NCBI RefSeq assembly: GCF_030408575.1
Contig: NZ_CP047047.1
Span: 1,599,991 to 1,663,990 of the forward strand
Direction: 5' to 3'
Source: Corynebacterium auris
GTDB taxonomy: Bacteria > Actinomycetota > Actinomycetes > Mycobacteriales > Mycobacteriaceae
DNA: 64,000 nt
Positions 32,270-50,808 of the stretch are shown here, piece by piece; the first letter of the stretch is position 1; each line of letters begins with the position of its first letter. Below the pieces are notes generated by a model. It saw only the letters and a program-made list of their open reading frames with translations, did no database searches and was not told where the DNA came from. Both the position numbers and the translations under genes were made by a program.

Positions 32270-33928
32270 GTGTTTGAGCCCTCCTTTACTACTCCAGACG
32301 TCTTCGATCCGGGCCACCGCTCCTACCCCGCTGACGCCGAGCAGCGATACCGCGGCGCGGGGTACTGGACACGCGACGCGTTCGCCGACTTCCTGCCGCG
32401 CGCCGCGCGCTCGTTCGCATCCCTTCCCGCCGTGACCGGTTTTACCGCCGCGGGCAGCTACGAGTCGTGGACGTACCGCGAGCTCCACGAGCGGGCGTCC
32501 CGCGCGGCCGCGCGCCTATTCGCCGCAGGCGTGCGCGAAGGCGACCGGGTGATTATCCAGCTGCCCAACATCCTCGATTACCTCGTCGCAGTCTTTGCCA
32601 TCTTCGAACTCGGCGCTCTGCCGGTGTTCGCGCTTCCCGCCCACCGCCACGCGGAGCTCGCGCATTTCGCGCAGTCCGCTGATGCGTCGGCCTTCATCAC
32701 AACGGGTCCGTGGATGGGATTCGACCACCGCGGTCTTGCCCGCGAGCTGCGCGTCGCTCACCCTGACCTCAAGGTCTTCATCGCAGGTGAGGACCCCGCG
32801 GAGTTCACCCCATTCAGCTGGGACGATGCGCCAGACATTGCAGTCCCGCACCCCACCCGCCCGGAGACGTCGGTCGCGTTCCTGCAGGTGTCCGGGGGCA
32901 CCACGGGCGTACCCAAACTCATCCCCCGCACCCACGCGGACTACCTCTACTCCGTGCGGGCCAGCGCGGAGATCTGCAACCTAGACACGACAACCCGAAT
33001 GCTCGTGGTCCTCCCCGTGTCCCACAACTTCACCATGAGCTCCCCCGGCGTCCTCGGCGTGTTGATGGCCGGCGGCAGCGTCGTCCTTTCGCGCACGCCG
33101 GACCCCTCGACGGCGCTGGGGCTCGTCGCCAAGGAAAAAGCGACGATGACCTCCGTCGTGCCGCCGCTGCTCATGACGTGGCTGGCGCACGCAGATGCGA
33201 TCGGTGCCGACCTGTCGAGTCTGAAAGTCATCCAAGCGGGCGGCTCGAAGCTGCCGGAGGCCGCTGCGCGGCGTGTGCCCGAGGTCTTCGGGTGCCGCCT
33301 ACAGCAAGTGTTCGGGATGGCCGAGGGCCTGGTCAATTACACGCGCGACGACGACCCTGCCGACATCGTGGCCACCACGCAGGGCCGCCCCATCAGCCCG
33401 GCCGATGAGATCGCAATTCTTGACGACGCCAACCGCCCCGTCCCCGCCGGCGCCCCCGGGCACCTGTTCACGCGCGGGCCATACACCATCCGCGGGTACC
33501 TCAACAACGTGGACGCCTCCAGCTTTACCGAGGACGGCTTCTACAAAACCGGTGACATCGTGCGCCAACTGCCGTCGGGACACCTCGTCGTCGAGGGACG
33601 CGCCAAGGATCAGATCAATCGCGCTGGTGAGAAGGTCTCGGCCGAGGAGGTCGAAAACCACCTCGTGACGCACCCGGACATCATGGATGCCGCCGTCGTC
33701 GCTGTCGCCGACGAGCGCCTCGGCGAGCGGACCTGCGCCTACATCATCTCCGCACGCGAGCTGACCCACGCGGACGTGCGTATCCACCTGAAGAAGCGCG
33801 GGGTGGCCGCCTACAAGATCCCCGACGAAACCATCGTCACCGACGCTTTCCCCGTCACCGGCGTGGGCAAGATCAGCCGCCGCGAACTGCGCTCGGCACT
33901 GACCAAGCACTCTGCACTCCACAGCTAG
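32270..33928 (+). CDS. entE: 2,3-dihydroxybenzoate-AMP ligase (EntE/DhbE type)
   Basis: Stand-alone adenylation enzyme (552 aa) that activates 2,3-dihydroxybenzoate with ATP and loads it on an aryl carrier protein. The ATP loop is VSGGTTGVPKLIPRTHADY, characteristic of EntE/DhbE, and the substrate region reads LPVSHNFTMSSPG, with Asn where DHB-specific enzymes have it. The C-terminal lysine domain includes GKISRRELR. The start is GTG 32270 without a visible SD. It opens the rightward siderophore operon, 15 nt before the carrier-protein gene. Salicylate instead of DHB is possible from this enzyme alone, but EntA, EntB and EntC nearby argue for DHB. Confidence 0.94.
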   Translation: MFEPSFTTPDVFDPGHRSYPADAEQRYRGAGYWTRDAFADFLPRAARSFASLPAVTGFTAAGSYESWTYRELHERASRAAARLFAAGVREGDRVIIQLPNILDYLVAVFAIFELGALPVFALPAHRHAELAHFAQSADASAFITTGPWMGFDHRGLARELRVAHPDLKVFIAGEDPAEFTPFSWDDAPDIAVPHPTRPETSVAFLQVSGGTTGVPKLIPRTHADYLYSVRASAEICNLDTTTRMLVVLPVSHNFTMSSPGVLGVLMAGGSVVLSRTPDPSTALGLVAKEKATMTSVVPPLLMTWLAHADAIGADLSSLKVIQAGGSKLPEAAARRVPEVFGCRLQQVFGMAEGLVNYTRDDDPADIVATTQGRPISPADEIAILDDANRPVPAGAPGHLFTRGPYTIRGYLNNVDASSFTEDGFYKTGDIVRQLPSGHLVVEGRAKDQINRAGEKVSAEEVENHLVTHPDIMDAAVVAVADERLGERTCAYIISARELTHADVRIHLKKRGVAAYKIPDETIVTDAFPVTGVGKISRRELRSALTKHSALHS

Positions 33929-33943: not shown

Positions 33944-34168
33944 ATGGCGTTAACCCGTTCCGCCATCCTGACCGACATCGCGCGCGCCCTCGGCGTCGAC
34001 GACAACGCCGTTGACCCTGCTGCCCCACTGGAGGACCAGGGCCTCGACTCCCTCGGGATCGTCAACCTGGCCGAGAAGTGGCGCAGCGCTGGCGAGGACG
34101 TGGACTACTTCGACCTCGTCACCTTGCCCACCGCCGACCAGTGGATCGAGCGCCTCGCCAGTGATTAA
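33944..34168 (+). CDS. Free-standing aryl carrier protein
   Basis: A 74-aa carrier protein that should hold DHB as a phosphopantetheine thioester. The attachment Ser is in DQGLDSLGIVNLAEKW, and the following KW...DVDYFDLVTLPTADQW closely resembles the aryl carrier end of EntB (ARW...DIDF...PTIDAWW). In E. coli and B. subtilis this domain is fused to the isochorismatase; here it is separate, while the EntB-like gene at 39066-39707 lacks it. It follows entE by 15 nt and its stop overlaps the esterase start by 8 bases. Confidence 0.92.
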   Translation: MALTRSAILTDIARALGVDDNAVDPAAPLEDQGLDSLGIVNLAEKWRSAGEDVDYFDLVTLPTADQWIERLASD

Positions 34169-35327
34169 TCCCGAGCGCCTCACGAGCGCGAGCCCCGAAG
34201 AGATCACCCAGCTTTACGACGAACTTGCCCCCGGGGACCTGCCCGCCTGGAACACGGCGACCAACGACGTCACCTTTATCTACCGAGTCCCCGGCGCGCC
34301 CGCCGGTGTGGGCGTTCACCTGCGCATTAACCGGCTGACGGACAAGGCAAACTTCCCCCGCGGGGTCATGCACCGCGTCCCCGGCACCGACGTGTGGGTG
34401 CTAACGCTCAACATTTCGCCCACGCTGCGCGCAAGCTACGGCTTTTCGACATTCACCGGCCCCGCTCCCACCCACACTCCGCCCCCGGGCTTCGGCGCCC
34501 CGCCGACGAAGGCTGACCCCTTCAACCCCAGCGGTACGGCGCACACCTCGATCCTGGCCGGCCCGTATGCCCCGGCCCAGCCCGAATGGGAGGCTGCGGA
34601 CGCCGAGCTTTCCGGAAGCGTCAGCAAACGCGCCTGGGACAACCTCGGTGGCAAACCGGTGCACCTGTACGTCCCTCCCCGCCCGGCGCGGTCGTTGCTG
34701 CTGCTCACGGACGCGGAGCGGTGGCTCGGCGACGTCTTTGTCCCCCGCGCCCTCGAGCGCGCGGGCGGCCCCCTCGGGGAGGTGGCTGTGGTGGGCGTGG
34801 GCAACGTCGATAAGAATGATCGCCTCGCCTCGCTGGGGGAAAACCCGGCGTTCATTAGCGAGCTCGTTGAGGGCGTCGTGCCATGGGCCCGGCGCGAAAC
34901 GGGTGCCACTGGGCCCACGATTTTCGCCGGTCAAAGCATGGGCGGGGTCACGGCGATCGCGGCCGCGCTGCGCCACCCCGGCGCGTTCGATGGCGTCATC
35001 GCGCAATCGCCCTCCATGTGGTGGCAGCCCGGGCAGCGCCCCTCGCCCGCTCTGCTCGGCTCCACGACGCGCGACTACCTGCCCCGACTCGCCGATTCCC
35101 TTCCGTCCGATCCGCGCACCCGCATCGCGTTGAGCGTCGGAGCGCAGGAGAACGCAACCGTCGCGCACGTCGCGGGGCTGGAGCTCTACCTGCGCGCCCG
35201 CGGGTGGAGGACGCGGCTCACCATCGAAGACGGCGGCCACGACTACGCGTGGTGGCGCGGAGATCTTCTTGCCCAGCTGACAACCATGATTGGACCACAC
35301 GGTGACCACAGCAACACCAGCAACTGA
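34161..35327 (+). CDS. fes: Ferric enterobactin-type esterase (Fes/IroD family)
   Basis: Alpha/beta-hydrolase (388 aa) expected to open the trilactone of the ferric siderophore in the cytoplasm and release iron. It has the Fes N-terminal domain (TNDVTFIYRVPG...), the nucleophile elbow GQSMGGVTAIAA and the C-terminal catalytic His in GGHDYAWWRGDL. No signal peptide is visible, consistent with a cytoplasmic role. GTG 34161 overlaps the carrier-protein stop by 8 bases, giving tight coupling. The presence of Fes implies a serine-lactone backbone. The downstream synthetase overlaps its 3' end. Confidence 0.92.
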   Translation: MINPERLTSASPEEITQLYDELAPGDLPAWNTATNDVTFIYRVPGAPAGVGVHLRINRLTDKANFPRGVMHRVPGTDVWVLTLNISPTLRASYGFSTFTGPAPTHTPPPGFGAPPTKADPFNPSGTAHTSILAGPYAPAQPEWEAADAELSGSVSKRAWDNLGGKPVHLYVPPRPARSLLLLTDAERWLGDVFVPRALERAGGPLGEVAVVGVGNVDKNDRLASLGENPAFISELVEGVVPWARRETGATGPTIFAGQSMGGVTAIAAALRHPGAFDGVIAQSPSMWWQPGQRPSPALLGSTTRDYLPRLADSLPSDPRTRIALSVGAQENATVAHVAGLELYLRARGWRTRLTIEDGGHDYAWWRGDLLAQLTTMIGPHGDHSNTSN

Positions 35328-38300
35328 GGCCCAGTCGGCCTTCTACTTCGCGCAGGTCCTCGAACCGGGCTCGGCCACGCTGCAGTGCGCGGAACTGCTC
35401 GCCTTTGACGGCGAAATCGACCCGGACAAGCTGCGGCGGATCATCGCCGACGCCACCGAGCGGCTCGTCCCGTGCACGCATGAGTTCGTGCCGGCGGGCG
35501 GGGGGATCGTCGCGAAGAAAACTGCCGAGCGCCCCGACATCACCGTCGAACGGCTCACCGCGGCGCCCGCAGGTGGAGTGGAGCAGTGGGCGCGCGAGCG
35601 CATCAACGTGCCCGCGCTTGTCGACGCCACCCGGCTGACGCCCCGTGAAACCTCCGGCCACATCATTGCGTACGTGCCGGACCAGGGGTGGGTGTGGCTG
35701 GCCCGGTTCCACCACATTGTTGGCGACGGCTTTGCGCTGCACCTCTTCGTGCGCTGGGTGGCGGAGTCCTACCGGCTGGGCGGCCTCACGGACGGGCCGT
35801 TCACCTCGCAAGAGGACGCCCTCGCGTCCGGTTCCAGTGCGGTGCAGAAGGACGACCAGGAGTTCTGGTCGCAGGTGGAGATCGACACCGACGTCGCGCG
35901 CCTCAACCCCGGGCGCGTCACCGGCCCCAACGCGCGCGTGCTGCGCACCGTGGCCAGTATTGGGAGCGACGAGCGCCGCGCTCTGCGGGGCATCGCGCGC
36001 GCGGTCGGCGTGGGCGAAGCGGACGTGCTGGGCGCCATTGCTGCCCACTACGTCTCGACCGCCACCGGCAGCGCACGCGTGGTGTTGGCCGTGCCGCAGA
36101 TGAACCGCCGCATGGGCAGCCCGCTCACCCCGCTCGACCCGGTGGTAACCGCACCTCCCGTCCCGATGGAGATTCGCCGCGGCGAGACGGTCGGTGAGGC
36201 CGCCCGCGCGTTCGCGGAGGTCAGCGCCGAGCGCCGCCAGCACGGCCGCTACCCGACGGAACGAATCCGCCGCGACCACGGTGTATCGCCCGGCGTGGCC
36301 CTGACCGGGCCAAGCCTCAACGTGCGGCCTTTTACCGCGCGTTTCGATTTCGGTACCGCGACCGCAACGCTTACGACGATATCCGTCGGGCCAATCGAAG
36401 ACGTGGAAATCATTGTCCAAACAGGTGCACAGGGTGGCCTCGACGTGATCATGATGTCGCACGACGACCCGGCGCGGGCGGGACTGCTCGCTACCCACGC
36501 GCAGCGCCTGGCACGCGGGCTCACTGGCCTCGCCCGCTCGCGGTCGGGGGCAGAGTTGCCGTGCGCTGCACTCCAATTCTTCGCTACCGCGGAGCTTGCG
36601 CCGGTCATCGACATGAACAGGACCGATCACCCGTTGCACGCGCAACCGAACACGCTGACGGGTCTGCTGCGGCAGCGTCGGGGCGTCGAAAAGAACTCTG
36701 TCTCCCCTGGCCTGATGTGGCGCGGGGGCGCGCTGACGAGGGGCGAGATGTGGGATAACGTCGACGCGGCTGCCGCGACGCTTGCCGACGCCGGAGTGCG
36801 CGCCGGTTCCGTTGTCGCCGTGCGCATCGACCGCAGCCCAGACCTCCTTCTCGCCGTCGCAGCAATCGCCTCACTCGGTGCGACGTGGTGCCCGATCGCG
36901 CCCGACCTCCCCACTGCCCGGGCCGCAGAGATGCTGCGGACAAGCGGGGCGTCGTTCGCGGTCGAGTCAAGCGGCGATTTCCAGCTGCGAGTCTCGCGCG
37001 AGGGCGACGGCTCCGGTGAGGCTCGCGAGCCGCAGCCGCACAGCGCAGCCTATGTGCTGTTCACCTCTGGTTCCACGGGTGCGCCGAAGGCTGTTGTCGT
37101 GCCCCACCGCGCGCTCCTCAACCGCCTGGAATGGATGGCAAAGAACTACCATCTGGGCGCGGGCACGGTCGTTGCGCACAAGACACCCTCTACGTTCGAC
37201 GTCTCTGTCTGGGAGATGCTGCTGCCCTTCACACACGGCGTGACCGGTGCGGTGTGCGGGCCGACCTCACACCTCGACCCGCAGGAACTCTTCACCGAGC
37301 TCAGCGAACTCGGTGTCGAAGTCTGCCACTTTGTCCCCTCCGCCCTGGCCAGTTTCTTGGCGTACCACCGTCTGAACCTTCCCAGCTCCGCTTTGCGTGT
37401 GCACACGGTCTTTACCTCCGGGGAAGCACTGGGCGGAGACACCGCTCACGCAGCGCAGGAACTTCTTCGCGCCCGCGTGGTCAACCTGTACGGGCCCGCG
37501 GAGGCAGCGATCGACGTCACCGAGTACGTGGTCACCGGCCACGAGGACTCGATCCCGATCGGCCGGCCCGTGTGGAACACGACCGCGTGGGTTCTCGACC
37601 CCGCGGGACGCGTCGTGCCCCCTGGTATTACGGGCGAGCTGCACCTGGGTGGCGTCCAGCTAGCCACCGGTTACGCGGGCCGCGACGACCTCACCCAGGA
37701 GCGCTTCCGCATCCACCCCGTCTGCGGGCGCCTCTATTCGACGGGCGACCTCGCCCGCGTCGGTGACGACGGGCAGATCTACTACGACGGGCGCACGGAC
37801 TTCCAGATCAAGCTGCACGGGCAGCGCATTGAGCCCGGAGACATCGAGGTAGCCGCCCGCCGCATCGCGGGCGTTGACGACGCCATCGCGGTGGCGCGCC
37901 GCGTCGCCGGTGACATGCAGCTGGTTCTCTACGCAGCCACGGGCTCATCCGGGGTCACTGCCGAGACGATCACCCGTGAGCTACGCAGCGCCCTTCCGGC
38001 CTACATGGTGCCCGCCTTTGTCCTGCTTATGGACCAGCTACCGGTGTCGCGCAACGGAAAAATCGACCGCGCCGCGCTGCCGGAACCCACTGCTCCCGCT
38101 GGTGCCGCGCTTCCGGCCACGGCGGCCGAGCGCGCTATCGCCGAGGCTGTAGCAGCGGTGCTCGGGGTTGACCCGGCACTGGATCTGGACCGCAGCTTCT
38201 TCGAACTGGGCGGGACGTCGCTGACCGCAGTGCAGCTTACAGCGCGGTTGTCGGACACAGGCCGCACCGTCTCCGTCGCCGACGTCTTTGCGGCGGGAAC

Positions 38301-39069
38301 GCTGCGGGCGCTGGCCGGGGCCGAGGAGGACTCTCCCGCCAGCGCGTACGACCGGTTGCTGGAGCTCAAACCGCACCGGGACGACTCGGTTCCGCCCGTG
38401 GTCGCCCTCTACCCCGCCGGCGGGTTGGGCTGGTGCTACGCGGGCCTCGCGCAGTTCCTCGCGCCCGGTCGCGGGTTGTTTGCGGTGCAGGCGCCGGCGC
38501 TGACCGGGGGCGTTGCGGGGGCGTCGATAAGCGATGTTGCTCGCGACGCCCTCTCCCTGCTGCCCTGGGACGAGTTCGACGCCGTGGGCTGGTCCGTAGG
38601 CGGCGTAATTGCGCAGGACATGGCCGCCGCGGCGCCGGAGCGCGTGCGCCGACTCGTGCTGATGGATTCGTACCCCGCCCCGCTGTGGGCCTCGCGGCCT
38701 GCCCCGACCCATGCGGAGCTAGTGCGCGGGCTCGCGGCAATGGCCGGGGTCGACACGGATGGCGAGGACGCCGAGGATGTGTATCGGGCGATCGCCGAGT
38801 CCCGCTCGCCGCTCTCGCGGCTAGACGAGGCGACCCGCAGCACCGTTTTCACTGAGATGGAGCGCAACGCCGCGCTCATGCGTTCCCACGAGACGAGCCA
38901 GACGTCGGTGCCTGCCGTGCACCTGCGTGCCACGCGCAACCCGGAGCACATGCCGGCCCAGTCGTGGGAGCCGTTTGTGGGCGGGCTGGAGCTGGTGGAG
39001 GTGGAGACCACCCACCCGGGAATGGTCGCCTCCGAGACGTTCCAGTTGGTGGCGGAGCTTTTGGACTAG
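35302..39069 (+). CDS. entF: EntF-type nonribosomal peptide synthetase (C-A-T-TE), serine-specific
   Basis: Four-domain synthetase (1255 aa) that joins DHB to L-serine and oligomerises and cyclises the product. The condensation domain has HHIVGDG near residue 137. The A domain has LFTSGSTGAPKAV and NLYGPAEAAIDV; its specificity residues read by eye D-V-W-H-F-S-L-I-D-K against DVWHFSLVDK for E. coli EntF. The carrier Ser is in FFELGGTSLTAVQL, and the thioesterase has GWSVGG, an Asp in DSYP and a His in THPGMV. The start is uncertain: GTG 35302 or TTG 35290, both overlapping fes. Its TAG overlaps the TAG of the converging entB. No MbtH gene is adjacent. Confidence 0.93.
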   Translation: MTTATPATEAQSAFYFAQVLEPGSATLQCAELLAFDGEIDPDKLRRIIADATERLVPCTHEFVPAGGGIVAKKTAERPDITVERLTAAPAGGVEQWARERINVPALVDATRLTPRETSGHIIAYVPDQGWVWLARFHHIVGDGFALHLFVRWVAESYRLGGLTDGPFTSQEDALASGSSAVQKDDQEFWSQVEIDTDVARLNPGRVTGPNARVLRTVASIGSDERRALRGIARAVGVGEADVLGAIAAHYVSTATGSARVVLAVPQMNRRMGSPLTPLDPVVTAPPVPMEIRRGETVGEAARAFAEVSAERRQHGRYPTERIRRDHGVSPGVALTGPSLNVRPFTARFDFGTATATLTTISVGPIEDVEIIVQTGAQGGLDVIMMSHDDPARAGLLATHAQRLARGLTGLARSRSGAELPCAALQFFATAELAPVIDMNRTDHPLHAQPNTLTGLLRQRRGVEKNSVSPGLMWRGGALTRGEMWDNVDAAAATLADAGVRAGSVVAVRIDRSPDLLLAVAAIASLGATWCPIAPDLPTARAAEMLRTSGASFAVESSGDFQLRVSREGDGSGEAREPQPHSAAYVLFTSGSTGAPKAVVVPHRALLNRLEWMAKNYHLGAGTVVAHKTPSTFDVSVWEMLLPFTHGVTGAVCGPTSHLDPQELFTELSELGVEVCHFVPSALASFLAYHRLNLPSSALRVHTVFTSGEALGGDTAHAAQELLRARVVNLYGPAEAAIDVTEYVVTGHEDSIPIGRPVWNTTAWVLDPAGRVVPPGITGELHLGGVQLATGYAGRDDLTQERFRIHPVCGRLYSTGDLARVGDDGQIYYDGRTDFQIKLHGQRIEPGDIEVAARRIAGVDDAIAVARRVAGDMQLVLYAATGSSGVTAETITRELRSALPAYMVPAFVLLMDQLPVSRNGKIDRAALPEPTAPAGAALPATAAERAIAEAVAAVLGVDPALDLDRSFFELGGTSLTAVQLTARLSDTGRTVSVADVFAAGTLRALAGAEEDSPASAYDRLLELKPHRDDSVPPVVALYPAGGLGWCYAGLAQFLAPGRGLFAVQAPALTGGVAGASISDVARDALSLLPWDEFDAVGWSVGGVIAQDMAAAAPERVRRLVLMDSYPAPLWASRPAPTHAELVRGLAAMAGVDTDGEDAEDVYRAIAESRSPLSRLDEATRSTVFTEMERNAALMRSHETSQTSVPAVHLRATRNPEHMPAQSWEPFVGGLELVEVETTHPGMVASETFQLVAELLD

Positions 39070-39707
39070 GCGGAGCGCAGGGAGCGCAACGCGTCGTCCG
39101 TGCTGATGACGCGCCCTGCCCGCTGGGCCACCCAGCGTGACGCTGCCTGGTGGTCGGCAGCGGTGAAGTCAGCCACCGCGTCGTGGACCAAGAAGGGCTG
39201 GATGTCCTCCATAAACGCGACGACGGCCGTGGTTTTGATGCCGATGTCGGCGTACACGCCCGTGATCAGCAGCTGGTCGCGGCTCAGGGCGCGGAGGCGT
39301 TCGCGCAGATTAGTCTTTGCAAAGGCCGAGTAGCGCCACTTGGTCAGCACCGTGTCGCCAGCAGCGGGGGTGAGCTCGTCGATAATGCGTGCAGCCTCGG
39401 GTTTTCCCGTCATGCCGGGGCCCCAAAAGTCGCTCACAAGGGCGCGCTTCTCCGCAGGCTGGTCCGAGGGCTGGGCGGTGTAGAAAACCGGAACGTCGCG
39501 GGAGCGGGCCTCGTCGAGAAGCAACGCGATCGCGGGGATAACCGCACCCATGGGTTCCTCGTTGGCCGAGTAGGGGGCGATGAAGTGCCGCTGCATGTCG
39601 TGGACAAGCAGCGCGCATCGCTGCGGGTCAAGCGGCCAATCGACGTGCGACGCCGGAATGTCGCGGTCAAGGGGGTAAGCGATTGCCGTGGGCAGAGAAG
39701 TAGCCAT
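39066..39707 (-). CDS. entB: Isochorismatase (EntB N-terminal type, no carrier domain)
   Basis: Hydrolyses isochorismate to 2,3-dihydro-2,3-dihydroxybenzoate and pyruvate (213 aa). Family features are the catalytic Asp in CALLVHDMQRHF, the Lys in TVLTKWRYSAF and LLITGVYADIGIKTTA, close to GVYAHIGCMTTA of EntB. It ends after the hydrolase domain, and the aryl carrier is the separate 74-aa protein at 33944. ATG 39707. It is last in the leftward operon, and its stop shares CTAG with the synthetase stop. Confidence 0.95.
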   Translation of the reverse strand: MATSLPTAIAYPLDRDIPASHVDWPLDPQRCALLVHDMQRHFIAPYSANEEPMGAVIPAIALLLDEARSRDVPVFYTAQPSDQPAEKRALVSDFWGPGMTGKPEAARIIDELTPAAGDTVLTKWRYSAFAKTNLRERLRALSRDQLLITGVYADIGIKTTAVVAFMEDIQPFLVHDAVADFTAADHQAASRWVAQRAGRVISTDDALRSLRSA

Positions 39708-39735: not shown

Positions 39736-40812
39736 TTAGACAGCAGCGCGCTGCACGGCGCGGATGATGGTGGATAGTTTGTTGTGCGTCTCCACGTACT
39801 CGGCGCTGGGGTCGGAGCCGGCGATGATCCCGGCCCCAGCCCAGGCGGTGACGTGGCGCGCCTCGTAGAGCGCGCAGCGCAGCGTGACGGCCCACTCGCC
39901 GTCGCCGGCCGCGTCGCAGTAACCGACGCTGCCCGCGTACAGTCCACGCGGTGTCGGCTCAATGTCCGCGATGGCGTCCACGGCCTTTTGCGTAGGTGTC
40001 CCCGCCACCGCGGGGGTGGGATGCAGCAGGCGGGCGATGGTGAGCACGTCCATACATTTATCCCGCAGCGTCGCACTGATGTGCGTGCCGAGGTGCCACA
40101 TCGAATCCGTGGCGGTCAGTGTGGGCTCCGGCACCTTCACGTCGACGCAGTACGGCGCCAGCGTGTCGGCGATCATCTCGGTGACATAGCGATGCTCGCG
40201 CAGGTCCTTCGCGGAAGCGAGAAGTCCCTCCCCCAGCTCGCGGTCTGTCGCCGGGTCTGGGCTGCGCCCGATGGATCCCGCCAGCGGATGGCTGGTGAGG
40301 TGCACACCGCGTTTGCGCATAAGCTGTTCGGGGCTGGCCCCGACGATCGCGCTTTCGGGCCCCGTCGGTACCGAGAACACGTGGGCGGCGGGGTTCGTTC
40401 CCCGCAGCTCGTCGATGAGCTGGTCCCAGTCGAGGTCACGCTCGACGGTGGTGCTCACGGCTCGCGCGAGCACCACTTTCCGCAAAGCGACGTCCGCCCC
40501 GATGCGGCGGATCGCGTCGGCAACCGCCCCCTCAAAACCATCGCGGTCGAAGGTCTCCGGCTCGATGTTTGCCCCGCTCGTCTCCCGGCGGCGGGTGCGG
40601 GCCGCGTCGCAATCCCCCGCCGCCTGGCCGGTTTTCTCTGCGACGCAGACCCCCTCGCGGCACACATACAACTGGTCAGGCGAGCCCTTCTCAAAAGCCA
40701 ACGCGCCGACGACGGTGCGCCCCGGCACCCACGTTGTTGCCGGGCGCAGCGACGAGGCGGGGGCGCTGACCTGCACGGCCGGCGAGTCGTAGTAGAAATC
40801 GCTATTACGCAT
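39736..40812 (-). CDS. entC: Isochorismate synthase
   Basis: Chorismate-using enzyme (358 aa) that makes isochorismate, the first committed step toward 2,3-dihydroxybenzoate. Signatures are RKVVLARAV, the SHPLAGSIGRSPDP block, HLGTHISATL, LLHPTPAVAGTPTQKA and the C-terminal GAGIIAGSDPSAEYVET. The EntC/DhbC/MenF family is clear; its place between entA and entB supports a siderophore rather than menaquinone role. ATG 40812 overlaps the entA stop by 8 bases. Confidence 0.95.
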   Translation of the reverse strand: MRNSDFYYDSPAVQVSAPASSLRPATTWVPGRTVVGALAFEKGSPDQLYVCREGVCVAEKTGQAAGDCDAARTRRRETSGANIEPETFDRDGFEGAVADAIRRIGADVALRKVVLARAVSTTVERDLDWDQLIDELRGTNPAAHVFSVPTGPESAIVGASPEQLMRKRGVHLTSHPLAGSIGRSPDPATDRELGEGLLASAKDLREHRYVTEMIADTLAPYCVDVKVPEPTLTATDSMWHLGTHISATLRDKCMDVLTIARLLHPTPAVAGTPTQKAVDAIADIEPTPRGLYAGSVGYCDAAGDGEWAVTLRCALYEARHVTAWAGAGIIAGSDPSAEYVETHNKLSTIIRAVQRAAV

Positions 40813-42395: not shown

Positions 42396-43438
42396 GAGCT
42401 TTTTCTCCATTCGTGGGCAAGAAGCCAGATCAGATAGACGCCACCAAGTACCCCGGTGACCACTCCCACCGGCAGTTGAACTGGGGCGAACGCGCGTTGC
42501 GCAATCACATCGGACGAGGCGACCAGCAGAGCGCCGACAAGCGCAGAGCCGCCAAACCCAACCCCCGGGGCGCGCGCGATAAGGCGGGCAAGCTGCGGTG
42601 CAGCTAACGCCACGAAAGAAATCGGGCCCGCCGCCGCGACAGCTACAGCAGAAAGCGCCACCCCAACCGCAATGAGCTCACGCCGCCGCTTTGGGACGTC
42701 CACGCCCAGGCCGCAGGCCACCTCGTCACCGGCGAGCATGACGGTCAGAGGACGCGCGAGAACAAGCGACAATGGCACGAGCACAGCCAGCGCGATGACG
42801 AGGACGACGACAGGGGGCCAGGTGACGGCGTTGAACGACCCGGCCAACCAGATCGCACTTTGCTGCGCTTTGTCGAGTGACGCACGCACAACAAGCAAGT
42901 GGTTAACGGCACGCAGCGCGAACGACACACCAACACCAATGAGGACGAAGGTGATGCCACCCAATCCAGTACTTGTCGTGCTGCTACGGGCCAAGGCAAA
43001 GACGAGCGCACCCGTGACGCACCCCCCAGCGATGGCGCCGAAGGAGATGAGGACGGGGGTGGCGTCGAAAAGCATGATGGCAATGACGGCGCCCGTTGCC
43101 GCACCCGTTGTAAACCCTGTGATGTCGGGGCTGCCCAGGGGGTTGCGGGTAACGTTTTGGAAGATAGCTCCCGAGATTCCCAGGGCTGCGCCCACGAGGA
43201 GTGCCGCGATGACGCGGGGGGCGCGCAGCTCCCGCACGAAGTAGCTGGCTAGCGCGTTATCTCCCGTGCCGACAATCGCGCGCAGCGTGTCTGCGACGCT
43301 TAATGGGTAATCGCCAATCATGAGGGCGACGATGGCCACAGCTGCGCAGGCGAGACCGATGATTACGTTGACAGCAAGTGCGCGACGGGGGACGCGGAGG
43401 CACGCGGCGCCCACGCACACGGTGATATAGGTCGTCAC
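42392..43438 (-). CDS. fepG: Ferric siderophore ABC transporter permease (FecCD family, FepG-like)
   Basis: Iron-siderophore permease (348 aa) with about nine or ten hydrophobic segments. FecCD hallmarks are RELRAPRVIAALLVGAALGI, SGAIFQNVTRNPLGSPD and a C-terminal GPISFVALAAPQLARLIA. The start GTG 43438 overlaps the stop of the first permease gene by 4 bases. The pair should form the heterodimeric channel. Confidence 0.93.
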   Translation of the reverse strand: MTTYITVCVGAACLRVPRRALAVNVIIGLACAAVAIVALMIGDYPLSVADTLRAIVGTGDNALASYFVRELRAPRVIAALLVGAALGISGAIFQNVTRNPLGSPDITGFTTGAATGAVIAIMLFDATPVLISFGAIAGGCVTGALVFALARSSTTSTGLGGITFVLIGVGVSFALRAVNHLLVVRASLDKAQQSAIWLAGSFNAVTWPPVVVLVIALAVLVPLSLVLARPLTVMLAGDEVACGLGVDVPKRRRELIAVGVALSAVAVAAAGPISFVALAAPQLARLIARAPGVGFGGSALVGALLVASSDVIAQRAFAPVQLPVGVVTGVLGGVYLIWLLAHEWRKSS

Positions 43439-44433
43439 AATGCCTCCACCTGGCCCCGGCGGACGATGGCCACGAAAAGGGGCGCGCCGACCAGCGCGGT
43501 AACAATGCCAGTTTGAATCTCCTGCGGGTAGACCACAACGCGAGCGAGGATGTCAGCCGTGAGCAGGATTGCAGGCGCTGCCAGCGCAGAAAACGGAATC
43601 ACCCAGCGCTGATCGGGACCGCACACCCACCTCGCGAGGTATGGCACGCCCAGGCCCACGAACATGATCGGACCGGCGGCAGCGGTGGCCGCGCCTGCCA
43701 GCAGGGTGACCGCCAGCATGACGGTGGAGCGGGTGCGCCGGATGTTGACGCCGAGGGCGGCACCGTGGTCGTCGCCAAGCGCAAGTGCATTGAGAGCGGG
43801 CCCGGATGCGACCGCAAGAATAAGGCCAACCGCAATAAAGCCTACGACCGCGCCGATGACGGGGTAGCCACGGTTTTCCAGGCTGCCGGCAGCCCAGAAG
43901 CGGAATTCGTTGAAGACGTTCTGGTTGGACAAGGAGACGAATTCGACGAACGAGGTCACCGCCATCGACACGGCCACCCCGGCGAGGGCAAGACGCGCGG
44001 GCGTTGAGGAGCGCCTGGCTAAACCGCCCAGCACGTAGACGGCCACGGATGCTGCGGCTGCCCCGAGGAACGCGAACCAGACGTAGAACCAAATCGACGC
44101 CACACCCGCGACCGCGACCGCCACCACGACAGCGAGGGAGGAGCCAGCGTTGACGCCGAGGATGCCCGGGTCTGCCAAGGGGTTGCGCGTCAGCGCCTGC
44201 ATGAGCGCACCTGCAACTCCCAGGGCAGACCCGATCACAACAGCGAGGACGGTGCGCGGGATGCGGTGTCCTTGGATCACCGTGGCACCGGCGGAGCCAT
44301 CGGGGCGGATGATGTAGCGCCACGTATCGGTAAAGCTCATCATGTTCGAGCCCACCATAAGAGACACGCACATCAAGGCAGCAAGAGTAACGACACAGGC
44401 GAGCAAGCCCGCCGCGCGAGAACGAGTATGCAT
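43435..44433 (-). CDS. fepD: Ferric siderophore ABC transporter permease (FecCD family, FepD-like)
   Basis: First permease of the importer (332 aa), with HRIPRTVLAVVIGSALGVAG, ALMQALTRNPLADPGILGVNAG and GPIMFVGLGVPYLARWV. ATG 44433 abuts the stop of the preceding surface-protein gene (44434-44436), so permease expression is coupled to that protein. Substrate is inferred from context only. Confidence 0.93.
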   Translation of the reverse strand: MHTRSRAAGLLACVVTLAALMCVSLMVGSNMMSFTDTWRYIIRPDGSAGATVIQGHRIPRTVLAVVIGSALGVAGALMQALTRNPLADPGILGVNAGSSLAVVVAVAVAGVASIWFYVWFAFLGAAAASVAVYVLGGLARRSSTPARLALAGVAVSMAVTSFVEFVSLSNQNVFNEFRFWAAGSLENRGYPVIGAVVGFIAVGLILAVASGPALNALALGDDHGAALGVNIRRTRSTVMLAVTLLAGAATAAAGPIMFVGLGVPYLARWVCGPDQRWVIPFSALAAPAILLTADILARVVVYPQEIQTGIVTALVGAPLFVAIVRRGQVEAL

Positions 44434-45492
44434 CTACGACAAGTCGCGGTGATGCGCACCCACCGCTGCGAACTGGGTGGTTTCATCGCCGAAGTCGAAC
44501 GGGTCACCGGCCTGAGCGCCTCGTGGGTCACGGAAAACGACACCTCGGCGCGCGTCCTGCTCGCGGCGGTTGATGTAGATGTACCCGCCGACCGCCGAGA
44601 GGCCCACGATGAGGATGGACGCAGCAAACGCGATGCCCAGCCAGGGCACCTGACCCGCGACCAGCCCCGAGGCTGCGTCGTACTCGTCGGGGTCGAAGAA
44701 GGGATCGGACAAGCTCGCCGCATTGTTCGACGTGGAGTTTCCCGCCGCGGCCAGCTTGTTGCTCCCGCTCGTCGAGGAGGAGCCACCGCTTGACGGCGCC
44801 CCACTAGCGCGCGACCCCGAAGCCGTCGAACCGGTTGAACCCGTCGACCCTGAGGCCGTCGAGCCTGATCCTGACGCGGAACCGGTGCTCGCTCCCCCGC
44901 TTGCGACGACAACGACTCCTTCCTCATCGCTGGTGGTTCCCGAGGCGCCGCTGCCGGAGGCCCCCGACGTCGTACCGCCCGTTGTCGTCCCGGTTGTAGA
45001 TGTGGTGTCCGTCCCCGACGCCGTATTCGACGCCGCGTCCGCCGTGGTGCCAGACGCAGAGGTGACGACGAACTCGGGGCTCTTGTTGGAGTATCCAATT
45101 GTTCCATCCCCGCTGGGTGCCGTCGTCGATGCGAGGAAGCGGAACGTGTGACCGCCGGCGGACAACCCGCACGGTAGGTTGACGCTTCCCGATGCCTCCC
45201 CTGTCGAGTTCGCTTTGGCGCGGGCGACAACACCCGAGCCCTGCACGGAGTCGTCGTAACCTTGGCCGAGCCCGTCATCGATCTTGACACTGACAACTTC
45301 GCCCGCCGGAAAGCCACCGACGACGAAGCTGACGGTGCCGCAGTCCTCAACGGTGAAAGGGTTGACCTCGGAGTATGTGCCCGGGGTGTTGGTACTCGCG
45401 CCGCCCGAGGGGAGCCCAGCGGCCAGGGGTGCGCACAGCGATGCGAGCGCGACGGTAGCGCACGCAGACGCGACGCGGATAGAAAGTTTCAT
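44434..45492 (-). CDS. Secreted, membrane-anchored surface protein of the siderophore operon
   Basis: No named family is recognised. The 352-aa product has a signal peptide (MKLSIRVASACATVALASLC), a ~110-residue beta-type domain with a Cys pair (TVEDCGTVSF and NLPCGLSAGG) and the pattern VVSVKIDDG...GGHTFRFLAST, then a ~110-residue Ser/Gly/Thr linker, a membrane helix (WLGIAFAASILIVGLSAVGG) and a ~45-residue cytoplasmic tail ending HHRDLS. The N-terminal domain shares VKID(D/E)G...HT(L/F)RFL with the next protein. Its stop abuts the fepD start, so it probably acts in ferric siderophore reception at the membrane. The long linker could let it reach through the wall. Confidence 0.8.
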   Translation of the reverse strand: MKLSIRVASACATVALASLCAPLAAGLPSGGASTNTPGTYSEVNPFTVEDCGTVSFVVGGFPAGEVVSVKIDDGLGQGYDDSVQGSGVVARAKANSTGEASGSVNLPCGLSAGGHTFRFLASTTAPSGDGTIGYSNKSPEFVVTSASGTTADAASNTASGTDTTSTTGTTTGGTTSGASGSGASGTTSDEEGVVVVASGGASTGSASGSGSTASGSTGSTGSTASGSRASGAPSSGGSSSTSGSNKLAAAGNSTSNNAASLSDPFFDPDEYDAASGLVAGQVPWLGIAFAASILIVGLSAVGGYIYINRREQDARRGVVFRDPRGAQAGDPFDFGDETTQFAAVGAHHRDLS

Positions 45493-45517: not shown

Positions 45518-47128
45518 CTAGAGATTGCGGGTGCGCTTCCACGCATAGGTACCAAGGCCGCCTACCGCGACAAGTGCCAGCGACATCACGATGAGCGCCC
45601 AATCGCCGCCGCGCATCACGCTCGCGGACTGCGCTTCGTACGCCGTGGGCAGCACGTTTGCTTCTTCCGCCTCGCTGGCGGTACCGAAGTCCACGCCGCT
45701 CCATCCAATGAGCTGCTTCGAAGCACTCGTCATCGAGAACTTGTGCACGCCCTCCCCGAGCGCGGAGACGTCGACAGCAATTTGCTTCTCTGCGTTGAGC
45801 TGAACCCAACCGAGTTCCTTCGGATCCGGGCTGTACACGTGCACGAATGCCCAGCTGTTGGCGTCGGCCTTCGGCACGGTCAGCGTGAGCACGCCGCCAC
45901 TCAGCGTCCCTTTGACACCACCCGTATTGGAGTTGGTCAGCTTGTCCGCCGAATCCACCGGTGCAGAAGGCGTGAAGTCAGGCTTCCCCGGAGCATTCGA
46001 GCTTGTCGACGCCCCCGCGGCCCCCGTCGACGATCCCGCCGAGGAAGCTGTCTTACCCGACCCCGCAGCGACGGGTTCTGCGGCCTTCGCCTGCGTCGCA
46101 GCCGCCGCTGGAGAGCGATACAGCGTCGTCGTGCGTTTGGCTCCAGTTGTGGATGTCGCCGACGCAGCGGTCATAGTCGCAGTGGTGCTCACGGCCGCCT
46201 TCGCTGACGTGACCGCCTTGTCGAGGGATTTGACCTGGCTCTCGAAGTCACCTAGGGCCGAGATGATGCCGGAAGCACCATCGGTGTCCGATGACTCGTC
46301 CGTCAGGGTGATCCGCCCCCAGCCCAGCAGCTTGCCGACGTTGCCCCGGCTGCCATCTTGCGCCGTAATCACAACGGGCCCGCTGGGAAGCGCGGACTTC
46401 TTCGGAATGGTGTACCTACCTTGAGCATCGGCTTGGTACCAGGTCGTTCCCCAGACAGGCCGTTCAGATCCGTCAGCGGTGTAGGCGTTGAAGTACGCCC
46501 AGTGTCCTTCTTCTGCCCCGGGGTTGGTGACGACGAGATCGCTTCCCGTGTCCTCGACTGTGAGACCGGGTTCGCCCGTGAGATCGTCTTGGACGTTGAT
46601 CGGATCGGGGACGCCGTTCGGTGCGTAGTTACCGATGACGAAGGTGGTGTCTTGTCGGGTCTTGGGCGGCACTGAGCCGGTCGGATCGCCCGTTTGGAGG
46701 GTTCCAGTAAGGAATCGCAGCGTGTGAGCACCCATACCCAAAGCGGGTTGTGAACCCCGTGGTTCCGAAGTCGTACCGTCCGGCAAGACCATGTTGATGT
46801 CAAAGTCACCAGTCTTCGGATCCGGCCGGATGATCTCCCAGATCGTTCGGTTCGTGTGAAGGTTGTCGTTCAGGCGGGAGATTTTTCCCTCGTCGATTTT
46901 CACACCGATGACCCACGCGGAGTCCTTTCCCGCTGTACACCAGCCTTTGCCTGTGACGTGCAGGGTGCCGTCGGCGCTCGACGTTTCTGCAACTTGGTAG
47001 GTCGGCTTGTCCACTGAGGGCTGACAGCCGGTCGTCTCGGCTGCGAGGGCAGGCGCAGCGAAAAGGGGCGAGGTCGCAACCGTGAGAGCCGCGGCCGCTG
47101 CGGCAGAAACTTTCCGTGGGCGGGTCAT
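45518..47128 (-). CDS. Secreted, membrane-anchored multi-domain surface protein
   Basis: Function unknown. The 536-aa protein has a signal peptide (TVATSPLFAAPALA), an N-terminal domain (~38-170) with VIGVKIDEG and GAHTLRFLTGT, and two further domains (~185-285 and ~410-495) that look like copies of each other: both have W-A-(Y/F) followed by VY or AYT and end KLLGWGRI / QLIGWSGV. An Ala/Thr/Ser-rich linker separates them. A C-terminal helix (WALIVMSLALVAVGGLGTYAW) with a KRTRNL tail anchors it. ATG 47128 follows AAAGGA. It lies between the binding-protein gene and the 352-aa protein gene. Confidence 0.8.
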   Translation of the reverse strand: MTRPRKVSAAAAAALTVATSPLFAAPALAAETTGCQPSVDKPTYQVAETSSADGTLHVTGKGWCTAGKDSAWVIGVKIDEGKISRLNDNLHTNRTIWEIIRPDPKTGDFDINMVLPDGTTSEPRGSQPALGMGAHTLRFLTGTLQTGDPTGSVPPKTRQDTTFVIGNYAPNGVPDPINVQDDLTGEPGLTVEDTGSDLVVTNPGAEEGHWAYFNAYTADGSERPVWGTTWYQADAQGRYTIPKKSALPSGPVVITAQDGSRGNVGKLLGWGRITLTDESSDTDGASGIISALGDFESQVKSLDKAVTSAKAAVSTTATMTAASATSTTGAKRTTTLYRSPAAAATQAKAAEPVAAGSGKTASSAGSSTGAAGASTSSNAPGKPDFTPSAPVDSADKLTNSNTGGVKGTLSGGVLTLTVPKADANSWAFVHVYSPDPKELGWVQLNAEKQIAVDVSALGEGVHKFSMTSASKQLIGWSGVDFGTASEAEEANVLPTAYEAQSASVMRGGDWALIVMSLALVAVGGLGTYAWKRTRNL

Positions 47129-47158
47129 GAGAAGGCGTCCTTTCAACCGGGCGAAAAG

Positions 47159-48172
47159 CTAGAGAAGGGTCGACTGAATGTCGTCGAGAATGCGGTTCAT
47201 CAGCAATGGCCCGCCGGTGGACATCCACACGGTGCCGTCGACAGGAATGATGTGCTTTTCCCGGTAGGCCGTGAGGTTGGTAAAGCCGGCAATCTGCTCT
47301 GCGGAGGACACCGCGGCGCGAGATGCATCAACACCGGTCTGCCCGCCCGCATTTTTGTTGTTCACGCTGGACCCGCCAAGGGTGCCAAAGAACATGAAGT
47401 CGGCATCGATGTCGGCCATGTTTTCGCTGGAGACGGGAACCGAGTGCCCTGGTCCTTCGCGGTCCTGGCTTGCGGGGCGCTTCAGTCCGACATCCGTCAA
47501 CGCCCTTCCCGCAGGCTGTTCTTTGAGGATGAGGGACGGCGATGATCCTTCCCAACGCACGATCGAAAACGTGGAACCACTGTATTTATCCAACTTTCCG
47601 GCCAACCCATCGGCTTTTTTCTCGTAGTCCGAGATGATCTTCTCGCCCTCGCTCTTCTTGTTCACCGCATCAGCGACCAAGGTGAAGTTGCGCTTCCAAT
47701 CTCCACCGGCGTAGCCCGTGTAGACGACGGGGGCGATGTGCTCGAGGGCTTCAATAACGGGCGGGTTGTTGTTCACGGAGGTGCCGTCGATAAGAATGAG
47801 GTCCGGGTTCGCCGCACCGATCGCCTCGAAGTTAGGCTGCCCGACGCTGCCCATCACGTCGATAGAGCCCGCTTTGTCCTGCAGATATGCGGGGGCTCCG
47901 CTTTGACCGCGTCCCGCGACGATGCCTACCGGGGTCACCCCGAGAGCAAGCAAACCGTCGACGGTAGGCTCCGATAGCGCGACGACACGCTGAGGATCCT
48001 CGGGCACCGTGACAGACTTGTCGTTGACGTCTTTCACCTCGCGGGTCGCGCTCGACCCCCCAGAGGGTGACGAGGCGCTTGCTCCCTCCGTGCTGCTGCA
48101 GCCGGCCAGCCCGAGGGCGCCGGCGGTGATCAGTGTTGCGAATTTCAAAAAATGGCGCCGAGAAGTGCTCAC
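47159..48172 (-). CDS. fepB: Iron-siderophore substrate-binding lipoprotein with Tat-type signal
   Basis: Periplasmic-binding-protein of the FhuD/FepB/CeuE class (337 aa) expected to capture the ferric siderophore outside the membrane. The N-terminus has a twin-arginine motif TSRRHFLKF and a lipobox LGLAGC, so it may be a folded Tat-exported lipoprotein. Helical-backbone features include RVVALSEPTVDGLLALGVTP and ANPDLILIDGTS. I chose GTG 48172 with AAAGGA eight bases upstream; the longer frame enters a GC-rich intergenic hairpin region. The 536-aa surface protein gene follows after 30 nt. Confidence 0.9.
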   Translation of the reverse strand: MSTSRRHFLKFATLITAGALGLAGCSSTEGASASSPSGGSSATREVKDVNDKSVTVPEDPQRVVALSEPTVDGLLALGVTPVGIVAGRGQSGAPAYLQDKAGSIDVMGSVGQPNFEAIGAANPDLILIDGTSVNNNPPVIEALEHIAPVVYTGYAGGDWKRNFTLVADAVNKKSEGEKIISDYEKKADGLAGKLDKYSGSTFSIVRWEGSSPSLILKEQPAGRALTDVGLKRPASQDREGPGHSVPVSSENMADIDADFMFFGTLGGSSVNNKNAGGQTGVDASRAAVSSAEQIAGFTNLTAYREKHIIPVDGTVWMSTGGPLLMNRILDDIQSTLL

Positions 48173-48357: not shown

Positions 48358-50808
48358 CTACAGGCCGAAGATCGACAGGATCGCCTTGACGATGCTGGAG
48401 ATCGTCGAGTCCACACTGCTGAAGACGGTGCGGATCAGGGAGAAGAAACCGTCGGGCTTCGAGCCAGAGCTTTGCGACGGCGCAGTCGTCGTCGGTGCAG
48501 CCGGCGTGGTGGTCACCGGGGTGGTCGTTCCGGGTGTCGTCGTGCCCGGGGTGGTCGTTCCGGGTGTCGTCGTGCCAGGCGCGGTGGAGCCCGCACCCTT
48601 GGCGGCAATGCGGGAGATGGTGTTCTTGTCCGTGGCCGAGGAGTCCGACACGGTCCCCGACTTATTCACCGCGTAGACCACGCCCGGGGCGCCCGGATCA
48701 ACGTGGTTGACGGAGTTACCGCCCGGTGCCTGTCCCACTAGCGCGTGGCTATCGGCGCTGATGACGGAGATGGTGTTCGTGTTGAAGTTGGACACAAACA
48801 CCTGACGAGTCTTCGGATCGAACGCGGCATTGATCGAGCCCGCGCCCGTGGCCACGTCGCCGACGACCTTCTTCTCGTCGACGTTGTAGATCAGGGTGTT
48901 CCCCGTGCCCTGCGACGCAATGTAGAGGTTGCGTTCCTTCGGATCGAATGTCACACCCGAGGCGCGGCTGACCTTGTCGGCGGGCAGGTCGTAGACGGTG
49001 GTCTTGTTGCCGTCGCGAAGATCGATCTTCGCCGCCTTCGGCTGCGTCAGGGAGATGGTGAACAGCTCACAGGTCTCCTCGTTGAGGTGCAAAGACATGG
49101 TGTTGCCAAAGTCTGCAATCTCAATTGGGTTCTCATGGGTCAGGGTGGTGCCGTCAAAGACCTCGAGACGGTAGCTGTTGCCCGCCGCGATCGAGACATA
49201 CGCCTTATGGGTCGCAGGGTCTACGACGATATCGCGCGCATGGTTGGCTGAGCCAGCGTCGAAGACCTTGACCAAGCTCAAATCGTCTGCTTCGTAGACG
49301 GACACCGTGTTCTGGCGGGTATTTGTCACCCAGACGTAACCCAGCTCGTCGTCAAGCCCGAGCCCGTAGGCTGCGACCTTTTCGCCCGTGGTGGACCCTT
49401 CAACGCCTGCCGCATCGGCCTCTTTCTTCACCTCAAGCGTGTCTGCATCCAACTTGATCAAAGAGGAATCGGTGATCGGAGGACGCCCGACAGCGCGGGA
49501 CACGAAGATAGCGTTTTCCTTCGCGGAGTAAACGGTCTGATACAGGCCAGACTTGACATCCGTGGTGGTGATGTCGAAGTTCTCTGTGCCGGAAATTTCG
49601 TTGGACTGGCGGATCGAGTAGCCCGTCTCTTCCGTGAAGCTCGTTCCGTTGACGGAGTAGGTCACGGAGATCGCGGAGTTAAGTAGCTTCGTGTCGTTGG
49701 GAATCTTGACGCCCGCGAGGGTGGCTTTCCCATCCGCGGCGGAAGCCGTCCCGGACCACAGGCTCGTATCCCCTGCCTTCACCTCGGTGACCTTGGTGTC
49801 TGCCGAAAGGTTGGACACCGTCACGTCCTGGGTCGACCCGAGGAGCGCGTACGTGCCGCGCACGCCGTTAGCGAACGTGGCAGAGGCAAGCCCGGTGGCA
49901 GGGGCCGTCGCGGTGTGAGTGCCGTCGGTAAGCGCGATGGTCTTGGCCACACCCGCCGGGAACAGGCCATCGGTGACAGTGACGTCGGAGGTGAGCGCGC
50001 CCTTGTCGTCCGCCGTGGCATTCTTCAGCTCGACGGCCTTCCCGTCGATGGTGGCGGTCACCTTGGTGGACGGGGTGAAGCCCGATGCCGTGACCTTAAC
50101 CGTCTGGGATGTGCCATTGCGGGTGACCGATGCCGCCGCCTGGGAGCCATCCTGCTGTGCCGGGGTCGTCGGAGTCGCTTCCTGCGGCTTCAGCGTCCCC
50201 TTGGCGACGACCTCGAACCAGGCGTACTTGCCGAGGGATTCCTTGCCGTCGTCGGTTCCAGCCAGGTTGCGCACCCAATACCAGCCCGGTGCAAGGTTTT
50301 CGGGCAGGCGGAGCGTGGCGTCGAACGTCCCGTCTTTGCCGGGCAAGTAGTCGACCTCGCCGCCCTTGTGCTCGAAGGTTACGACCCCGCCAACCACGTT
50401 TTGGCTGGTGGCCCCTGTTTGGTCGCCGAACGCAAGGTTGGGGTCTTGCGCATCATTCAGTTTGAAGCTCATCGCGGCGTAGGTTCCGTCGGACGTTCGG
50501 TCGAAGTAGCCCTTGCCGTGAACCGCGATCAAGCCGCCCGGTTCGCCCTTGGAGGCCGTCAGCGTGCCCTGGCCATTGCCAGCCACACCACCCCTAGGTT
50601 TGAGCTTCAGTTTATCCAGCACATCCGAGGGCGGGGTCTGCGCCTCGGGGGCAGCGACGTATTCGCCGGAGACGGTGGTCGTCGCTGCGATGGGAGCCGC
50701 AGTGACGGTCGTAGTGGTCGCCACCTGCACACCGGTGACGAGGATGCCGGCGGAAACAAACGCGGCAATCGCGCGGCGGCCCGCCAGCGCGTGAGAGGAA
50801 CGAGTCAT
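48358..50808 (-). CDS. Large secreted surface protein with C-terminal beta-propeller
   Basis: First gene of the leftward operon (816 aa); role unknown. A signal peptide (about residues 1-38, ending VTAAPIA) is followed by an Ig-like domain (~60-195, with AVHGKGYFDRTSDGTYAAMS), a second Ig-like region (~215-330), and a beta-propeller of YVTN/YncE type (~400-740) with repeats such as VDPATHKAYVSIAAG, FDPKERNLYIASQGTG and FDPKTRQVFVSNFNTN. A (PGTTT)4 Thr/Pro stalk leads to a C-terminal ~25-residue amphipathic helix (TVFSSVDSTISSIVKAIL) rather than a classical membrane anchor. Two iron-box-like motifs lie upstream, so it is probably induced by iron limitation and may bind the ferric complex. Confidence 0.82.
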   Translation of the reverse strand: MTRSSHALAGRRAIAAFVSAGILVTGVQVATTTTVTAAPIAATTTVSGEYVAAPEAQTPPSDVLDKLKLKPRGGVAGNGQGTLTASKGEPGGLIAVHGKGYFDRTSDGTYAAMSFKLNDAQDPNLAFGDQTGATSQNVVGGVVTFEHKGGEVDYLPGKDGTFDATLRLPENLAPGWYWVRNLAGTDDGKESLGKYAWFEVVAKGTLKPQEATPTTPAQQDGSQAAASVTRNGTSQTVKVTASGFTPSTKVTATIDGKAVELKNATADDKGALTSDVTVTDGLFPAGVAKTIALTDGTHTATAPATGLASATFANGVRGTYALLGSTQDVTVSNLSADTKVTEVKAGDTSLWSGTASAADGKATLAGVKIPNDTKLLNSAISVTYSVNGTSFTEETGYSIRQSNEISGTENFDITTTDVKSGLYQTVYSAKENAIFVSRAVGRPPITDSSLIKLDADTLEVKKEADAAGVEGSTTGEKVAAYGLGLDDELGYVWVTNTRQNTVSVYEADDLSLVKVFDAGSANHARDIVVDPATHKAYVSIAAGNSYRLEVFDGTTLTHENPIEIADFGNTMSLHLNEETCELFTISLTQPKAAKIDLRDGNKTTVYDLPADKVSRASGVTFDPKERNLYIASQGTGNTLIYNVDEKKVVGDVATGAGSINAAFDPKTRQVFVSNFNTNTISVISADSHALVGQAPGGNSVNHVDPGAPGVVYAVNKSGTVSDSSATDKNTISRIAAKGAGSTAPGTTTPGTTTPGTTTPGTTTPVTTTPAAPTTTAPSQSSGSKPDGFFSLIRTVFSSVDSTISSIVKAILSIFGL
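48521..48580. repeat. Two 30-bp tandem repeats encoding the PGTTT stalk
   Basis: Two adjacent 30-bp units, identical at about 28 positions, encode (PGTTT)n on the minus strand. Such repeats can vary in copy number and change stalk length. Confidence 0.8.

Follow-up and report, generated by a model that had tools for sequence, protein, structure and literature searches.

An intact enterobactin-type locus in Corynebacterium auris with a recurrent uptake module and three candidate receptor proteins

Gene content and insertion site of the locus

The window analysed here is the whole stretch of 64,000 nucleotides from Corynebacterium auris. Open reading frame calls and family profiles show that positions 32270-50808 hold an intact enterobactin-type gene set of 18.5 kb, with one group of genes on each strand (Table 1). 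A preliminary description of this DNA had listed its genes; all of them are present with the coordinates and strands it gave, each as a single open frame, and no frame in the locus is broken. The synthetase, for which inactivating frameshifts had been considered, is likewise open with its motifs kept. The biosynthetic part of the locus is of a known kind, and what is new is the predicted reception machinery.

Table 1. Features of the enterobactin-type locus (positions in the window)
Feature	Position	Strand	Remarks
entE promoter region	32231..32265	+	DtxR-like 19-mer at 32231-32249 (14/19), overlapping a perfect inverted repeat
EntE-type 2,3-dihydroxybenzoate-AMP ligase	32270..33928	+	TIGR02275 642 bits, below cut-off of 723.55; HN motif kept
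Free aryl carrier protein, 74 aa	33944..34168	+	PF00550 above cut-off
Fes-type enterobactin esterase	34161..35327	+	PF11806 and PF00756 above cut-off; GQSMGG, GGHD; sequence matches among solved structures are Fes structures
EntF-type C-A-T-TE synthetase	35290..39069	+	Serine code DVWHFSLIDK
EntB-type isochorismatase without carrier domain	39066..39707	-	51% to E. coli EntB; best solved match 2fq1
EntC-type isochorismate synthase	39736..40830	-	TIGR00543 270.6 bits, above cut-off of 224.75
EntA-type dehydrogenase	40805..41545	-	PRK08220 230.9 bits, below cut-off of 312; 41% to E. coli EntA
ABC ATPase, FepC-like	41595..42410	-	54% to FepC over 253 aa
FecCD permease, FepG-like	42392..43438	-	PF01032; 43% to FepG
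FecCD permease, FepD-like	43435..44433	-	PF01032; 45% to FepD over 280 aa
surf352	44434..45492	-	D1, Ser/Thr-rich stretch, C-terminal hydrophobic segment; no Pfam family
surf542	45518..47146	-	D1, two Trp-rich domains (D2/D3), C-terminal hydrophobic segment; no Pfam family above cut-off
Siderophore-binding lipoprotein	47159..48172	-	PF01497; nearest solved relative YfiY
surf816	48358..50808	-	D1-like domain, middle beta domain, YncE-like beta-propeller (about residues 405-740)
Minus-strand promoter region	50828..50886	-	Three DtxR-like 19-mers (14, 14 and 15 of 19)

The preliminary description had also noted that the locus separates lipA from DUF4191. The locus does lie between these two genes, but so does a thiolase, FabG and MaoC group with a conserved 701-codon ORF (26242-32202), which rules out the enterobactin locus as the sole separator. 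Of 19 relatives examined, 9 have this group between the two genes; in the other 10 it is absent and lipA directly adjoins DUF4191. Eight of the nine group-bearing relatives show the locus site empty, with MaoC and DUF4191 matches 82-153 bases apart. G067, the ninth and by LipA the closest relative, has a single gene there, fes (about 7240-8505 of L245), whose product is 64% identical to the window Fes and which is preceded by a DtxR-like box (16 of 19 positions); neither the synthetase nor surf542 was found in the G067 genome. This lone fes may be a remnant or an older step. An inverted repeat also stands ahead of it, with a sequence unlike that of the window's repeat. The 17 genomes closest by LipA among the matches listed (91-97% identity) are absent from both the synthetase list and the surf542 list. 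Gaps of 67 and 223 bases separate the locus from its flanking ORFs; no tRNA gene was found in the 64-kb window.

Promoters and predicted iron control

Promoters were scored with a 19-bp DtxR consensus. The four 19-mers of the window that match it best (14-15 of 19 positions) all belong to the promoter regions of the locus, one at entE and three upstream of surf816 within 54 bases; three shuffles of the window, which keep single-base composition only, contained 2, 0 and 0 such sites. In other genomes, a box of at least 14 was present in 16 of 18 readable surf816 promoter regions, a genome being counted when at least one of its surf816 ORFs had one and the count omitting G007, G087, G135 and G193, where the region is truncated; regions upstream of lipoprotein genes had such a box in 3 of 24 cases. 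The box at the entE promoter overlaps a perfect inverted repeat at 32235-32265 with arms of at least 10 bp, a pattern that has one site in the whole genome. From the DtxR-like boxes we infer iron control of the locus by DtxR.

The synthesis half and its predicted product

The synthesis enzymes were compared with those of E. coli, giving identities of 40% for EntE, 51% for EntB (200 residues), 41% for EntA, 37% for EntC, 31% for EntF (almost full length) and 28% for Fes. The window synthetase consists of one module in which the HHxxxDG, GGTS and GWSVGG motifs are kept; its A-domain code reads DVWHFSLIDK, against DVWHFSLVDK in E. coli EntF, and its Condensation and Thioesterase domains give weak profile scores. 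Among the motifs examined in EntE, EntF, EntB and Fes, the one substitution is in EntB, where an Asp replaces the His of the GVYAHIG motif; the others are intact. This position is a His in 12 of 14 other rows of the genus, the remaining two being a Ser in G082 and an Asn in G058. The genome contains two phosphopantetheinyl-transferase matches, and no exporter gene was found within the locus. No match to the MbtH family (PF03621) was found in the genome, with a positive control in E. coli and B. subtilis. The E. coli reference locus has the MbtH partner of EntF as ybdZ, although such a partner does not strictly define an enterobactin cluster; since the window genome has no MbtH match, its EntF would work without MbtH.

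To place this synthetase within the genus, 201 genomes were surveyed, and an NRPS/EntF match at 1e-60 was obtained in 36, of which 16, including G132, were set aside as multi-module or partial NRPS. Single-module serine-code EntF relatives are thus present in 20 of the 201 genomes. All 20 have a code of the form DVWH[FIVM]S[LF][IV]DK and, once aligned, all keep the serine code together with the C, T and TE motifs. G132 carries a different two-module DHB-type NRPS cluster (L130, open frame of 2772 codons) that includes entA, entB, entC, entE, a Fes relative and an ABC transporter of its own, in a genome without surf542 match. The rarity that the preliminary description ascribed to such a locus was only partly right, as 20 of 201 genomes carry such a synthetase and an entF group is already in print: genome mining of respiratory Corynebacterium reported an entF-annotated NRPS group (PMC12188740, excerpt).

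Bacillibactin synthetase comprises two modules with glycine and threonine codes. The preliminary description had argued against bacillibactin from the lack of a glycine module, and had proposed an enterobactin-type chemistry. Both proposals agree with what we found, namely one module with a serine code and DHB enzymes that are open frames of the right families. The serine code and the single module rule out bacillibactin or a threonine lactone as the product. Based on the known chemistry of these families, the predicted product should be enterobactin, the cyclic trimer of 2,3-dihydroxybenzoyl-serine.

The uptake module and its three surface proteins

The transporter of the locus has identities of 54% to FepC, 43% to FepG and 45% to FepD of E. 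coli. The N terminus of the lipoprotein is twin-arginine (Tat-type) and lipobox-like. The lipoprotein aligns with FepB over 77 residues at 27% identity, and its nearest relative among solved structures is YfiY, which is listed as a schizokinen receptor (PMC13293324, excerpt). This kinship with YfiY is the main sequence result that speaks against strict enterobactin specificity.

The three surface proteins, which the preliminary description listed and left uncommented, are the most unexpected component of the locus. No Pfam or NCBIfam family was found for surf352 and surf542, and surf816 was recognised in its propeller half only. HHalign nevertheless relates the three proteins through one domain, D1, at 98% for surf352-surf816, 97.5% for surf542-surf816 and 90% for surf352-surf542, and finds a Trp-rich domain twice in surf542 (D2/D3, 99%). 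Longer surf542 homologues have about 200 extra N-terminal residues that resemble a further D1 in consensus. A C-terminal hydrophobic segment is present in 25 of 25 surf542 rows and 21 of 24 surf352 rows, and none of these rows had an LPxTG flagged within its final 60 residues. By predicted location and topology, the surface proteins look membrane-anchored and reaching outward.

HtaA proteins are corynebacterial iron-related surface proteins with a shared repeated domain. The HtaA domain (PF04213) gave no Pfam match in the surface proteins, and HHalign of D1, D2 and D3 against it reached 0.2% or less (control 99.7%), which rules out that the D1 proteins are HtaA-type haem receptors. The window genome has no HtaA match; HtaA matches occur in 19 of 41 Corynebacterium genomes and in one of 14 control genomes, that of C. 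glutamicum. Models calculated from the single window sequences are predicted beta-sandwiches of low or middling confidence. Foldseek gave no match to D1 with E < 0.001 and VIA-align Z stayed below 8, so no fold is named. A tblastn search of 72,556 plasmid records gave no match to surf542 or surf352 (plasmids only, a weak test of absence), and profiles of the three surface proteins had no match among 7,751 ORFs of fetched NRPS loci, again a weak test of absence. D1 was seen in Corynebacterium only, the one group where it was searchable.

A surf542 match is present in 25 of the 201 genomes, and in 19 of these 25 the seven-gene module keeps the order surf816, lipoprotein, surf542, surf352, two permeases, ATPase. 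Among the exceptions, no ATPase was detected in G139 and no surf352 in G142 and G149; the module is rearranged and partly doubled in G165, cut by a contig end in G119 and present as fragments only in G048. In G165, two sets of surf352, surf542 and lipoprotein relatives lie side by side (L179), and the surf816 relative sits apart, in L116.

Co-occurrence of uptake module and synthetase

surf542 is present in all 20 synthetase genomes versus 5 of the 181 others (Fisher p 3e-23). The synthesis and uptake halves are adjacent in 6 of the 20 genomes and within 23 kb in 2 more; in the other 12 they are 0.34-1.2 Mb apart or on different contigs, which rules out linkage alone as the cause of the co-occurrence. 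Shared descent was examined on a LipA/LipB tree, which covers 130 of the 201 genomes, draws on just these two genes, which are neighbours (with lipB identified in 126 of the 130), and excludes, among other genomes, the carriers G135 and G171. The synthetase changes state 13 times on this tree and 14 times on a FastTree tree, where shuffled labels gave 17 changes on average and 13 at least; the synthetase is thus scattered almost at random on the tree, so that gains and losses are frequent. Nine supported independent pairs differ in the synthetase, and the module differs in the same direction in 8.1 of them on average and opposes the synthetase in none (median p 0.008). Close pairs that differ in both traits are G061/G018, G031/G110, G160/G120, G142/G027 and window/G067. 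These independent pairs rule out shared descent alone, and together the data show a recurrent uptake module tied to the synthetase beyond linkage and descent. Judged from this co-occurrence only, the trio is the likely receptor for ferric enterobactin. The module occurs without the synthetase in four genomes, two of which have a Fes gene beside it; a module with Fes and no synthetase looks like the use of another organism's siderophore.

The YncE-like propeller of surf816

The C-terminal half of surf816 scores 67.6 bits against NF052280, whose equivalog cut-off is 400, and the solved relatives of the propeller are 1l0q (E 6e-7) and 3vgz (E 1e-5). This half therefore appears to be a relative of the seven-bladed YncE beta-propellers, not an equivalog. 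Relatives of the propeller alone, with 36-44% identity, are found on plasmids of Rhodobacterales. In total, 569 plasmid records match the propeller, 495 of them from Escherichia. Nine listed Escherichia/Shigella matches (query 48589-49596, 25-26% identity) are annotated senB, enterotoxin-production protein.

From the 569 matching records we opened 15 propeller loci (listed rows H26-H51, one per species or plasmid, minus K. pneumoniae and two further Thioclava strains), and one unannotated locus was left uncounted, giving 14. In 7 of the 14 annotated loci an EntF-type NRPS and a free carrier lie no more than about 15 kb from the propeller, a count to be read with the fact that for seven of the 15 the EntF-type match was already known or the locus was chosen with that in view. 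These seven are from Paracoccus alcaliphilus, Thioclava, Haematobacter, Pacificitalea, Roseomonas, Qingshengfaniella and Streptomyces rimosus; the annotated NRPS is short in Pacificitalea, and that of S. rimosus is unannotated and was found by tblastn. Six EntF proteins from propeller loci have the code DVWHFSL[VI]DK. In five of the 14 loci the propeller stands beside a TonB-dependent receptor without NRPS, and two have no EntF-type gene and no TonB receptor close by, indicating that propellers of this family also do other things. Across 33 aligned propellers, residues W493, N496, H523, R525, Q633 and N701 are shared by 91-97%. In two phyla (Alphaproteobacteria, Streptomyces) the propeller is tied to loci of the enterobactin type, and it may be a binder or hydrolase of the trilactone outside the cell. 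Literature searches found nothing joining a beta-propeller to enterobactin and siderophore uptake, or Corynebacterium to YncE and siderophore.

Discussion

We propose, with a probability of roughly 0.6, that the locus makes enterobactin and recaptures the ferric form via the FepDGC-like transporter, fed by the receptor trio. Iron starvation would lift DtxR; DHB would be loaded on the free carrier and then joined to serine, and DHB-serine would be trimerised and cyclised by the TE domain. Enterobactin would leave the cell through a transporter encoded outside the locus, and ferric enterobactin would be caught at the surface by surf816, surf542 and surf352, which have D1 in common. The surface trio would hand it to the lipoprotein and permeases, and Fes would open the trilactone inside the cell. 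The trio would in this way do for the corynebacterial envelope what TonB-dependent FepA does in enterobacteria.

The trio could alternatively serve haem, a xenosiderophore or cell-wall shaping, and be kept for general iron supply. Such a role would fit a lipoprotein closest to YfiY and the module without synthetase in four genomes, yet we consider it unlikely given the distribution of surf542 (20 of 20 synthetase genomes versus 5 of 181 others), the lack of any relation to HtaA and the tie of the propeller to EntF-type loci elsewhere. Harder to sustain is a product other than cyclic enterobactin, for instance linear trimers or a dimer of DHB-serine, which is considered in view of the distance of the condensation and TE domains from their counterparts in E. 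coli EntF. The identity of just 31%, the weak Condensation and Thioesterase scores and a genome without MbtH point that way, against which stand the 20 synthetases, all with the serine code and intact C, T and TE motifs, and the presence in the locus of Fes, the opener of trilactones in known systems; we regard this outcome as improbable. That the locus is silent or being lost in the window strain has a very slim chance, for all that G067, the nearest LipA relative, keeps just fes at the same site and that Antarctic Rothia with enterobactin-like clusters gave no detectable siderophore in the assays used (PMC13347742, excerpt), as no frame is broken and motifs and promoter boxes are kept.

We also advance a wider proposal, tentatively and at somewhat less than even odds. 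Mycolic-acid bacteria may have their own ferric-enterobactin surface receptor, consisting of three proteins that share a single undescribed domain. One of the three would be joined to a propeller that is also used by enterobactin loci in alphaproteobacteria and Streptomyces, and the propeller may be a general extracytoplasmic enterobactin binder or lactonase, partnered by TonB receptors in Gram-negatives and by the D1 trio in corynebacteria. To our knowledge, little is understood of how the mycolic outer layer of corynebacteria and mycobacteria receives siderophores. Judged by titles and the starts of abstracts, the literature on Corynebacterium with enterobactin, catecholate, corynebactin or mycomembrane does not describe the uptake module. 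In Gram-positives the task of recognising siderophores is usually ascribed to the substrate-binding lipoprotein (PMC13293324, excerpt). A module gained and lost with the enterobactin synthetase offers three candidate proteins to probe with a known ligand, and YncE-like propellers in siderophore loci gain a candidate role. Should these species produce enterobactin, they would either rival its other users for iron or feed them.

Comparison with known systems

The E. coli enterobactin system (entCEBA, entF, fes, fepBDGC, fepA) has the same enzyme set, serine code and single C-A-T-TE module, and Fes and a FepCGD-like transporter are also common to both. The differences are that the carrier is fused to EntB in E. 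coli and free in the window, that the window genome is without MbtH and the window locus without exporter, that the locus has three surface proteins instead of a TonB receptor gene, and that its binding lipoprotein is only weakly like FepB. The plasmid loci likewise group a ligase (except in the S. rimosus stretch), a free carrier and an EntF-type synthetase with a YncE-like propeller. Their propellers share 27-44% identity with that of surf816, in proteins of 362-470 residues that are much shorter than surf816, and the Thioclava and Pacificitalea stretches have an annotated FepA-family receptor. The HtaA-type haem receptors are also iron-related surface proteins with a repeated domain, but D1, D2 and D3 are unrelated to the HtaA domain. 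Corynebactin of C. diphtheriae is a DtxR-repressed siderophore of the genus, as the product predicted here would be, but it is a dicitryl-lysine and not a catecholate (PMC3326035, excerpt). Rothia mucilaginosa, from a genus that has no mycolic layer, offers a likeness among actinobacteria, with a catechol-siderophore cluster for which enterobactin is proven (PMC7190385, excerpt).
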